A stretch of DNA of 64,000 bases. It comes from Nostoc sp. ATCC 43529. GTDB lineage: Bacteria > Cyanobacteriota > Cyanobacteriia > Cyanobacteriales > Nostocaceae. Numbering within the stretch: position 1 is the first letter of the stretch; each line of letters opens with the position of its first letter. The notes beneath the pieces are model-generated. The model was not told the origin of the DNA, did no database searches, and saw only the letters and a program-made list of their open reading frames with translations. This document shows positions 41,589-46,940 of the stretch, in pieces. Location: NCBI GenBank assembly GCA_003326205.1, contig LWTK01000044.1, positions 1 through 64,000 of the forward strand. The letters are read 5' to 3'. The position numbers and the translations under genes were made by a program.

Positions 41589-42029
41589 ATGGTAACTGTA
41601 ACACTGACGGCTGTTGCTACTGCGATCGCAACTACGCTTTGGACTAAAGCACAGGAGAAAATCGGCGAAAATATCGGCGATGCTACATGGACGCTAGGTG
41701 GTAAGTTAATCGGATTACTCCGCCAAAAGAATAAATCGCCATTACTCACCAGTGCTGTAGAGGGAAATGAACCGCAGCGTTTAGATTATGGTCAAGCAGT
41801 GCTGGAACTGAAAGCAGCAGCAGAACAAGACCCAGAAATTGCTCAAGCTGTTGTAGAAGTGGAAGCAGCAGCAAAAGCAGAACCAAAACTAACTCAAAAA
41901 ATTCAAGAAATAGAAAATACTCTCAAGTCTCAACAGCCAACCATTCAAAATCTGACGCAGCTAGCAGAAAAAATTGGGGTTGTAAATCAAGGACAGATAA
42001 ATAACCAAACTAATAATTTTACGATTTGA
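41589..42029 (+). CDS. N-terminal piece of the NACHT gene (146 aa)
   Basis: If translated alone, this frame gives a 146-residue protein. A short hydrophobic start (VTLTAVATAIATTLW) is followed by an Ala/Glu-rich helical, coiled-coil-like stretch and the Asn/Gln-rich tail NQGQINNQTNNF that in relatives links to the NACHT domain. It is the effector/adaptor-like N-terminus of the broken gene described above. Whether it is still made is unknown. Confidence 0.5.
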   Translation: MVTVTLTAVATAIATTLWTKAQEKIGENIGDATWTLGGKLIGLLRQKNKSPLLTSAVEGNEPQRLDYGQAVLELKAAAEQDPEIAQAVVEVEAAAKAEPKLTQKIQEIENTLKSQQPTIQNLTQLAEKIGVVNQGQINNQTNNFTI

Positions 42030-44052: not shown

Positions 44053-44073
44053 TTAAGCCTCAACTTTTACGCC
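44053..44073 (-). CDS. DUF427 protein gene, exon 2
   Basis: Minus-strand reading from 44073 gives GGC GTA AAA GTT GAG GCT TAA, that is G-V-K-V-E-A-stop. This is the normal C-terminus of DUF427 proteins (FWK followed by GVKVEA). The rest of the gene is exon 1 at 46677-46940, and the 2603-base group II intron lies between. After splicing the product would be 94 residues, the usual family length. Confidence 0.8.
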   Translation of the reverse strand, partial: GVKVEA

Positions 44074-44112
44074 GTTAACTAAGCAGGCAAGTCGCCTTAC
44101 CTACTCGTCTTC

Positions 44113-44147
44113 AAAACCGGACGTGAGACTTTCACCTCATCCGGCTC
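44113..44147 (-). ncRNA. Group II intron domain V
   Basis: Catalytic hairpin of the intron: gagccggatgaggt, GAAA tetraloop, then tctcacgtccggtttt. Sequence and shape match the conserved domain V. Confidence 0.85.
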
Positions 44148-44179
44148 CTCAAAAACTTGGCGATTGTCATTCGTACTTC

Positions 44180-46063
44180 TCATTTAGACCTAGTTCTTTT
44201 GTCCTTTGAAGGCTTGTTAGAACTGATTTGATTTTTATCATTGATGGTCTTTTCTACGTGGCAATGTTTATGTAGTAGCTGGAGGTTGGAAAGTGTGTTT
44301 TTACCACCCAATATTCGGGCTTCTTTGTGGTCGAGTTCCCATTTATCTCCATACCTAAAATAATCGTCACACCAGGGACATTTCCCAGATTGTAACTTGA
44401 GCAGTTTTATGGATATTCCAGAAAGTTCTGGATGTTTCCCTAGTCGTTGGCTCCAGTATATTGTGTCACCGTCAAAAGGGCTTTTATCCCCTTTTATTTT
44501 GATGTACTTATCTGTTCCGCATGATATTGAATCATGTCTGATAAGCATAAGAGAGTTTTCCCTCGTTCTGGGTGTAGAGAAGCACCAATGATTGTTGCCT
44601 ACTGTTTGCCAGTATTTCTTTACCCAGTATTTAGTTGGCTTGTTTGGGTGACGGTATTTTGCCCAGGCTCGAAGTTTACACCAAATTAAATGATCGAGAG
44701 TTGAATAGGTTTTACTACTATTTGCAGTAGAAAAGTAGTTTGCCCATCCCCGAATTTTTGGATTCAATTTCCAGATAAGTTTATCCTGTGACCAGGCTTT
44801 ACCTCTCTCGATTACTTCGGATATGTCTCGATAGTGTCTCTTGATGCTTTCTTTGCTTGGGGTAATGATTGTGCAATGCCCTATTCGATTTCCTTGGGTA
44901 TTTTTCCAAGCGTGTTTCTTTCCTATTGGATGTTGCCTAATATTAAAACCTAGAAAGTTGAATCCTGGTCGTTCATTCCCTTCTGAGTTTAGGGTATGTG
45001 CAATCCGGGTTTTGCTAGGTTTTAGCTCTAATCCGATAGTACTAAGCCAATTGGAGATAATCTCCTTACATCTTTGGACTATGGCTAGGTCTTCGTGTAT
45101 TACAACGAAATCATCTGCATATCTGATTACACTGAGGCTATTAACTTTATCCCTGGCAGCCATAGGATTTCCCCCTGGATATCTTAAGGGAACCTTTTTG
45201 ATGTAATCCATTAGCAGATTTTCTAAACCGTGGAGGGCAATATTGGCTAAAAGTGGAGAAATTACTCCACCTTGAGGTGTACCCTCAGATGTATCAACAT
45301 ATTGACCACAATCTATGACCCCTGATTTTAACCAGGCTTTTAGTTGTCGTCTAAACTTCGGGAAGGTTTGCACCTTCTCTAAAAGTTTTTCATGGTTGAT
45401 TTGGTCGAAACATTTTGCAATATCAGCATCAAGAACATACTTAGTTTTGTATCTAAGTGTTTCCCATATAGCTTTGATAGCATCTTGGGCATTGCGTCCT
45501 GGTCGGAATCCATAAGAGTTGGATTCAAATCGTGCTTCCCATTCTGGCTCAAGGGCTAGTTTGACAAGCGATTGCATGGCTCGGTCGTACATTGTCGGTA
45601 TTCCTAATGGTCTTTTTTCCTCCTTTCCGGGCTTCGGAATCCATACCCGGCGCGTGGATTTGGCTTTTGTACCAAATTTTAGGTTTTTAACTAGTTCAAG
45701 TCTTTGCTGGGGTGTTAAAGATTTAACACCGTCTATTCCAGCAGTTTTCTTTCCCTGGTTATCTTGAGTTACCCGACGTACTGCCATACATTTTGCTGAC
45801 CAGGAGTTTGATAAGGTCTTCTGGAGCTTACGGACTGCCTTAACATCACCACGGCGAGAAGCTTTGTAGATGCGCTTTTGCAGCTTAAATACACGACATT
45901 CTATTTCCCTCCAAGAAATTTCTCGCCATGATGGTGATTTATTTTCTTTTTCGGGATAAGGTATATCGTTTATCCATACCATCCTCAGATTTTGGGCATT
46001 AGTCTTATTCACTGCTATTTGTACCTCTACACTCCAAGTTTCCGTGGGGCTGTCTGCGTCCAC
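44180..46063 (-). CDS. ltrA: Group II intron reverse transcriptase/maturase with HNH domain
   Basis: 627 aa from a GTG at 46063; the start is uncertain. RT domain with GIPTMYDRAMQSLVKLALEP, YGFRPGRNAQDAI, EGTPQGGVISPLLANIAL (given in part) and the catalytic YADD near residue 316. A maturase (domain X/GIIM) region follows (about 400-470, IRGWANYF), and a C-terminal HNH endonuclease has CPWC and WELDHKEARILGG. All key residues are present, so splicing and retrohoming are plausible. It is of the bacterial LtrA-type lineage seen in cyanobacteria. Confidence 0.92.
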   Translation of the reverse strand: MDADSPTETWSVEVQIAVNKTNAQNLRMVWINDIPYPEKENKSPSWREISWREIECRVFKLQKRIYKASRRGDVKAVRKLQKTLSNSWSAKCMAVRRVTQDNQGKKTAGIDGVKSLTPQQRLELVKNLKFGTKAKSTRRVWIPKPGKEEKRPLGIPTMYDRAMQSLVKLALEPEWEARFESNSYGFRPGRNAQDAIKAIWETLRYKTKYVLDADIAKCFDQINHEKLLEKVQTFPKFRRQLKAWLKSGVIDCGQYVDTSEGTPQGGVISPLLANIALHGLENLLMDYIKKVPLRYPGGNPMAARDKVNSLSVIRYADDFVVIHEDLAIVQRCKEIISNWLSTIGLELKPSKTRIAHTLNSEGNERPGFNFLGFNIRQHPIGKKHAWKNTQGNRIGHCTIITPSKESIKRHYRDISEVIERGKAWSQDKLIWKLNPKIRGWANYFSTANSSKTYSTLDHLIWCKLRAWAKYRHPNKPTKYWVKKYWQTVGNNHWCFSTPRTRENSLMLIRHDSISCGTDKYIKIKGDKSPFDGDTIYWSQRLGKHPELSGISIKLLKLQSGKCPWCDDYFRYGDKWELDHKEARILGGKNTLSNLQLLHKHCHVEKTINDKNQISSNKPSKDKRTRSK

Positions 46064-46676
46064 TCCCCATTACAGAGAGCAGGAGTTGCTTTTGCCCCAA
46101 TCCCTCTCCTAAGTTGCCTGGATTTCCAGTGTGTTGCGTCTTAGCTGACTACTCAAAAATCGACCATTTCTGAGAGCAAATCTTAGGAGTTATTTCGTTC
46201 CTAACTGGCTTTGGTTTCTGGTTTTAGAGTCTCTCTGTCCACCGGGGTACTTTTGGATGCATTTCAAAGACACCAACATTCTCTGAACTTTTGCTAGGAC
46301 ACTGGAAAATTGCCTAGCCTTTCCCCTTGGTCAGTTTTTGACCCTTGCGTATTAGCCTCTTCCGCAAGTTGGCCTTTTACGATGGTTCATACGAGAGTTC
46401 GTATTCCTACTCATGACCAGTTGCTAGGGATTCCACCCCATTTTGAGGCTTAGAGTTTCCTCCCATTTTTCCCAGCTTCAGCGATTTGGATTGCTAGTTC
46501 AAACACTGTGGGAATGCTGTCAACCTTTGCATCTAGGCGGCTAGACTGAGGATTTGAATATCCTGGCACTAGCAAGCCAGTTAAGTTGTCAAAGTTCTAA
46601 GTTAGAACTTTGCGGCTAATCCTTCAAACCTTTATCCAGTAAGGATTATGGTTGATTTCTAGCCAACGAATCGCAC

Positions 46677-46940
46677 TTTCCAAAAAGCCACATAACCTTC
46701 AATATTTTTCGCTTTCTCCTTTGTGCTGGGATAGTACCAAGCAGCATCTTTGTTGACTTGCCCATCAACTTCGATATTATAGTAACTGCATACACCTTTC
46801 CAATAACAGGTAGTATGTGTGTCACTTTCATTGAAGTATTCTTTGTTAATGGTGTCAGCCGGAAAATAATGGTTGCCTTCCACCACTACGGTATTATCGC
46901 TCTCAGCTAAAACTGCACCATTCCAAATTGCTTTCGGCAT
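46677..46940 (-). CDS. DUF427 (NTP_transf_9) protein gene, exon 1
   Basis: 88 codons from ATG at 46940: MPKAIWNGAVLAES, the SDTHTTCYWKG motif with the conserved Cys-Trp-Lys-Gly, DAAWYYP, and ending YVAFWK. The frame then runs into the intron, where unspliced reading gives VRFVG-stop. With exon 2 (44053-44073) the C-terminus becomes FWK-GVKVEA as in family members. The protein is a small beta-rich domain of unknown function, widespread and often single-copy. It lies beside a truncated epimerase gene on the same strand. Confidence 0.85.

Follow-up and report, generated by a model that had tools for sequence, protein, structure and literature searches.

Liu and co-workers reportedly described, in 2003 and 2004, group II introns in the genes for thymidylate synthase (ThyX) and ribonucleotide reductase. 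The intron considered here likewise occupies a conserved coding host, but the gene and the site are different. In Trichodesmium many introns lie within protein-coding genes, and 17 group II introns are documented as splicing in vivo, according to the available part of that report (PMC4649490). The same part gives 10 of the 17 introns of Trichodesmium erythraeum as having no intron ORF (PMC4649490), whereas the present intron carries a complete intron-encoded protein (IEP); it also occupies a different host gene and site, and its splicing, which is documented for the Trichodesmium introns, is here predicted from the sequence. Introns of the CL classes are described as sitting in housekeeping genes, and those of class CL2 as almost exclusively cyanobacterial, in the portion of the source available (PMC4424553). 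Gene-splitting group II introns are already known in cyanobacteria, and the one in a DUF427 gene of Nostoc sp. ATCC 43529 is a well-formed new example. The window (the whole 64,000-nucleotide stretch of DNA that was analysed) very probably holds a mobile intron that inserted into this gene, that is most likely spliced with the help of its own maturase so as to give a 94-residue protein, and whose early stop codon would clear ribosomes from the ribozyme core.

The divided gene and its intron

Exon 1 of the DUF427 gene (46677..46940, minus strand), identified by direct reading of the sequence, translation and Pfam, is 264 nt long and runs from 46940 to 46677 as 88 codons, MPKAIWNGAV...VAFWK. Its frame matches the Pfam family DUF427/NTP_transf_9 (PF04248) at 3.5e-32, scoring 110.5 bits (cut-off 22.1). 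Exon 2 (44053..44073, minus strand), assigned by reading of the sequence and by comparison with relatives, is only 21 nt long: GGC GTA AAA GTT GAG GCT TAA, from 44073 to 44053, encodes GVKVEA and a stop. Translation joins FWK to GVKVEA in phase 0, giving 94 amino acids. The initial annotation had placed a group II intron exactly between codons of this gene, and coordinates and translation agree with that reading to the base. DUF427 domains are described as having a beta-tent fold and no known function (PMC4287342). The only solved structure to match at 0.001 is 3djm, and since the match ends at query residue 87 it is uninformative on the C-terminal tail.

The intron itself (44074..46676, minus strand; 2,603 nt) reads GTGCGATTCG...CTTAGTTAAC from 46676 to 44074. 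Group II introns begin with GUGYG and end with AY, and the boundaries here fit this consensus, with GTGCG at 46676 and, closing the 3'-terminal TTAAC, AC at 44074. Rfam places domain V at 44150-44110 and RF00029 (77 positions) at 44149-44074; the matches to RF04357 and RF00029 are both above the gathering score, and that to RF00029 stops precisely at the proposed 3' splice site. The stretch comprising domains V and VI (44074..44150, minus strand) folds far better than its shuffles (z -5.11, with 0/200 as good), and the A at 44080, seventh nucleotide from the 3' end of the intron, is a candidate branch point. The IEP (44180..46063, minus strand) has 627 amino acids if counted from the mechanical GTG at 46063; the GTG at 46012 (610 amino acids) is a more likely start, judged by comparison with loci L119 and L120, where an ATG start can be seen. 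Its frame is uninterrupted, with Pfam domains RVT_N, RVT_1, GIIM (maturase) and HNH and a YADD motif, and it passes the TIGR04416 model for group II reverse transcriptase/maturase proteins with 338.4 bits (cut-off 300).

Elsewhere in the window, on the plus strand, an open reading frame at 42569-43912 matches HEAT_2 and NCC-H alone (the C-terminal part of NACHT proteins), and another at 41589-42029 has no Pfam match; the two are suspected to be what is left of a NACHT-type gene that has lost its middle.

The intron-free gene in related genomes

The same-genus comparison set consisted of the 29 loci that were read out (L087-L115). In every one the DUF427 gene is uninterrupted and reads FWK|GVKVE at the intron site; residues 86-93 (FWKGVKVE) are invariant, with A as the final residue in 26 of these loci. 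The proposed junction is therefore not a chance one. The 119 nt directly downstream of the DUF427 stop codon show 96.6% identity with L088, so that the site in the relatives is the orthologous empty site. Two expectations of the initial annotation, an intron-free gene in near strains and a family alignment reading FWKGVKVEA across the junction, are thus borne out, at 29/29 same-genus loci for the uninterrupted gene and for FWKGVKVE and at 26/29 for the terminal A.

Some DUF427 match was obtained in 57 of 59 genomes searched, and none in G034 or G052. The window's own match stops at residue 88, whereas every other match with E of 1.1e-39 or better extends to 93 or 94; one of these, in G050, has an internal TAG. 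In G013, G022, G039, G043 and G046 the sole match is weaker and of a longer type. In an order-wide sample the last 44 DUF427 residues were matched in 230 of 291 genomes; among the matches listed, only that of the window's genome (G000) stops at the intron site, which lies between query residues 38 and 39, and the others reach residue 42-44. Recurrent homing into DUF427 left no sign among these listed matches. A candidate for an insertion at the same site, L007, was set aside: its exon 2 opens with GGAAGAAAAGTG, yet the exon on the 5' side is not DUF427.

Seen in this genome alone among those sampled, the insertion may be young. In comparisons of the spliced coding sequence with each of the 29 relatives, dN/dS lies in the range 0.050-0.132, but if the insertion is young, then this low ratio and the intact exons mostly reflect history before insertion and say little about later function.

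Recognition of the 5' exon

The last six nucleotides of exon 1, TGGAAA (46677..46682, minus strand), were identified in the pairing analysis as IBS1. They pair by 6/6 Watson-Crick matches with TTTCCA at intron nt 369-374 (46303..46308, minus strand), the EBS1 in the loop of a domain I hairpin, GGCTAGG...CCTAGC (46293..46319, minus strand), that was located from an alignment of 25 introns. The EBS1 stem is present in the minimum free energy fold, although the stretch as a whole is no more stable than its shuffles (z -0.74, 44/200 as good). For each of the 25 introns the aligned hairpin, about 25 nt, was compared with the intron's own exon end, and the best six-base match was scored with G-U counted as half. 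The scores, which are 6/6 in four introns and 4/6 in five, sum to 125, where exchange of the exons gives a mean of 105.2 (sd 3.0) and no sum as high in 5,000 trials; among the 25 introns, six belong to a single type and so are not independent. EBS1-IBS1 pairing thus covaries across the 25 related introns.

Sister introns in the same genome

The initial annotation had proposed a search for other intron copies. A genome-wide search found no second full-length copy of the DUF427 intron, but related sister introns are present. One of them, of 2,439 nt and in phase 0, divides the thymidylate kinase gene tmk (L129, G000:C33, 1982-4420, plus strand) between the GK and the TS of the P-loop. The joined protein matches PF02223 (Thymidylate_kin) at 7.1e-46 and is the sole PF02223 match in the genome. 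This family is matched in 13 of 14 control genomes, and thymidylate kinase in 38 of 39 genomes overall, G036 being the exception; in all 22 same-genus genomes searched, a PF02223-type match runs through the intron site. Since the only tmk is cut in its P-loop, its intron must be spliced, on the assumptions that the kinase is needed and that no unrelated enzyme replaces it, and this argues for splicing of the intron family in this cell. An intron seems to occupy this position of tmk in L160 too and, to judge from the bases at its junction, in L149. No report of a group II intron in a cyanobacterial thymidylate kinase gene was apparent in the literature searched.

A second sister intron (2,475 nt, phase 0) lies in a hypothetical gene on G000:C71 whose product has no Pfam match. 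Two further 3' intron parts, with 23S_rRNA_IVP as their 3' exons, stand at the ends of contigs G000:C44 and C77 (L130 and L131); their introns and that of L159 resume at the same protein position in the 23S_rRNA_IVP genes. Contigs C44 and C77 break off within the intron, which hides the 5' exons; such a break is expected of repeated copies. It had been supposed at the outset that the interruption of an ordinary gene is uncommon for a bacterial group II intron. That view is not supported in this genome: with tmk, the hypothetical gene and the 23S_rRNA_IVP genes as hosts, gene interruption is usual for the intron family in this cell. As a separate observation, a 5' intron end lies just downstream of a 5S rRNA gene (L133, 6876-6920, minus strand, C86) and a domain V-VI end near the start of a 16S gene (L132, 1384-1459, plus strand, C20); at a guess, these are the halves of an intron broken near an rRNA operon.

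The unspliced transcript and alternative explanations

The open reading frame list and translation place an in-frame TAG just inside the intron (46659..46661, minus strand; intron nt 16-18). Read on from exon 1, the intron begins GTG CGA TTC GTT GGC TAG in the host frame, so that five codons (VRFVG) are read before the stop. The unspliced product would accordingly have 93 amino acids, one fewer than the normal protein, with VRFVG in place of GVKVEA, and its frame retains the whole Pfam match (residues 3-88, profile positions 2-92 of 93, 110.5 bits). The claim in the initial annotation that expression of the protein depends on splicing is therefore too strong. It stands for the conserved C-terminus; the unspliced RNA still encodes a 93-residue protein with the full match, and splicing would not clearly be needed for all function.

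These properties of the unspliced frame are what could be expected if the intron splices poorly or never and the cell lives on the product with the VRFVG tail. Such a state of affairs is improbable: FWKGVKVE (residues 86-93) does not vary in any of the 29 relatives and, among the order-wide matches listed, all but the window's own run past the site, so that the tail looks selected. Moreover, the sister intron in tmk must splice if any full thymidylate kinase is to be made.

That the insertion killed the DUF427 gene and left a pseudogene, with a junction that is merely the trace of the target site, is very unlikely. The occurrence of the insertion in this genome alone would suit such a history, as would the same-genus genomes G013 and G022, where the distant, longer DUF427 type alone is present, and G034, a 72% complete genome with none, a pattern indicating that the gene can be lost. 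Both exons, however, are intact and in frame, dN/dS is at most 0.132 against each of the 29 relatives, and the IEP and the features of the ribozyme are intact. Misassembly of an intron from elsewhere into the DUF427 locus, which the sister introns at contig ends in the same assembly (C44, C77) might bring to mind, is scarcely credible given that the genome holds no other full-length copy, that the intron lies well inside a 143-kb contig, and that its EBS1 fits the DUF427 exon at 6/6 positions.

Related introns and their host sites

Of 217 same-family genomes, 92 match the IEP at E no higher than 1e-150. With at most five candidates scored per genome, the best match outside the window's intron has 60-62% identity, and the matches listed outside this genome are 50-62% identical; there is thus no near-identical copy to indicate recent mobility. 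IEP relatives of about 44-61% identity come from cyanobacteria except for a single contig labelled Gracilibacteria. A cyanobacterial label is carried by 42 of the 80 loci kept, and nearly all the best IEP identities are among these. It is in such labels of the IEP relatives, and not in a class tree, that the likeness to the CL2 introns lies, as these are described in the available part of the source (PMC4424553).

Intron junctions were sought by boundary patterns in 155 sources (the window, L006-L046, L080, L085, L128, L129 and L146-L254), with at most two 5' candidates per 3' end, sources without a recognisable end giving none; 110 distinct junctions resulted. A clear coding split was defined as an open frame of at least 20 codons on each side, at least 80 in total, and at least twice as long as the next frame. 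By this definition 57 of the 110 junctions qualify, with 46 in phase 0, seven in phase 1 and four in phase 2; the DUF427 intron is absent from the 57 because its exon 2 is only six codons long. Collapsing recurrent sites leaves 46, of which 36 are in phase 0 (5.4e-10 against equal thirds), six in phase 1 and four in phase 2. At other cut-offs the uncollapsed counts for phases 0, 1 and 2 are 49/9/4 of 62, 36/4/2 of 42 and 35/4/2 of 41. Rows in these phase counts, and in the early-stop counts below, share ancestry.

Hosts that we take to be ThyX-like and RNR-like (the latter by motif) recur among the surveyed relatives. Three loci have two introns in one gene: L085 (at 223 and 2849), L015 (at 2831 and 5375, the second intron beginning 1 nt past the end of the first) and L010 (at 68 and 2815), in hosts that are presumably peroxiredoxin-like, Dam-like and ThyX-like, respectively. 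The RNR-like name finds no backing in Pfam: a joined 97-residue piece from L236 has no match at 0.001.

An early stop in the host frame

A stop in the host frame within eight codons of the intron start occurs in 43 of the 57 clear splits, as against 19 of 114 for the other two frames; for collapsed sites the figures are 34/46 and 16/92. When the observed phases were reassigned among the introns, the mean was 28.5 and 34 was reached in 126 of 20,000 trials; with uniform random phases the mean was 16.7 and 34 was never reached in 20,000. The early stop is often the TAG of a CTAGAAA sequence, by eye in what may be a hairpin loop, and in 7/57 it follows directly as GTG TGA. Several phase-1 introns, in hosts that are presumably Dam-like and ssb-like, have instead a CGT TAG or CGT TAA stop in the phase-1 frame.

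It is tempting to suggest, if tentatively and at rather less than even probability, that the early stop is a translational brake built into cyanobacterial group II introns of this family, one that shields the ribozyme from ribosomes and makes phase-0 sites the tolerated landing places. Several results count against such a brake. Of 21 introns whose host frame is not clear, 13 have a frame-0 stop as well, and the needs of the ribozyme may be what conserves the stretch bearing the TAG. Frame-0 stops and phase 0 are associated at a borderline level (Fisher p 0.051, 56 introns). In two of the four phase-2 introns the first host-frame stop comes at codons 19 and 24, and several phase-0 introns, some of them in transposase-like hosts, have no stop before codon 17-34. 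There is a parallel in group I introns, most of which are described, in the available part of the source, as having an in-frame stop directly after the 5' junction that keeps ribosomes out (PMC3073962); the early in-frame stop is alike, but here it belongs to group II introns and is known from sequence alone. In the literature searched for an early stop or a phase bias in group II introns, no statement of such a stop was found for them, which is not proof of absence.

Proposed course of events and its significance

On the reading preferred here, that of a mobile and most likely spliced intron, a group II intron with its own reverse transcriptase/maturase/HNH protein would have entered the DUF427 gene once its host lineage had diverged from the same-genus species sampled, EBS1-IBS1 pairing directing the insertion to TGGAAA|GGC. 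Splicing, most likely aided by the maturase, would restore the 94-residue DUF427 protein. Ribosomes arriving at an unspliced junction would halt five codons in, at the TAG at 46661-46659, and release the 93-residue protein with the altered tail, and this early halt would keep them off the ribozyme core.

The DUF427 gene is a clean case, open to checking, in which a bacterial protein can have its conserved C-terminus only through RNA splicing. Set beside the phase-0 and early-stop pattern of the relatives, it allows the conflict of translation with ribozyme splicing to be put to the test in bacteria. That conflict is relevant to the way in which group II introns could have become established in coding genes, which models of the origin of spliceosomal introns take for granted.
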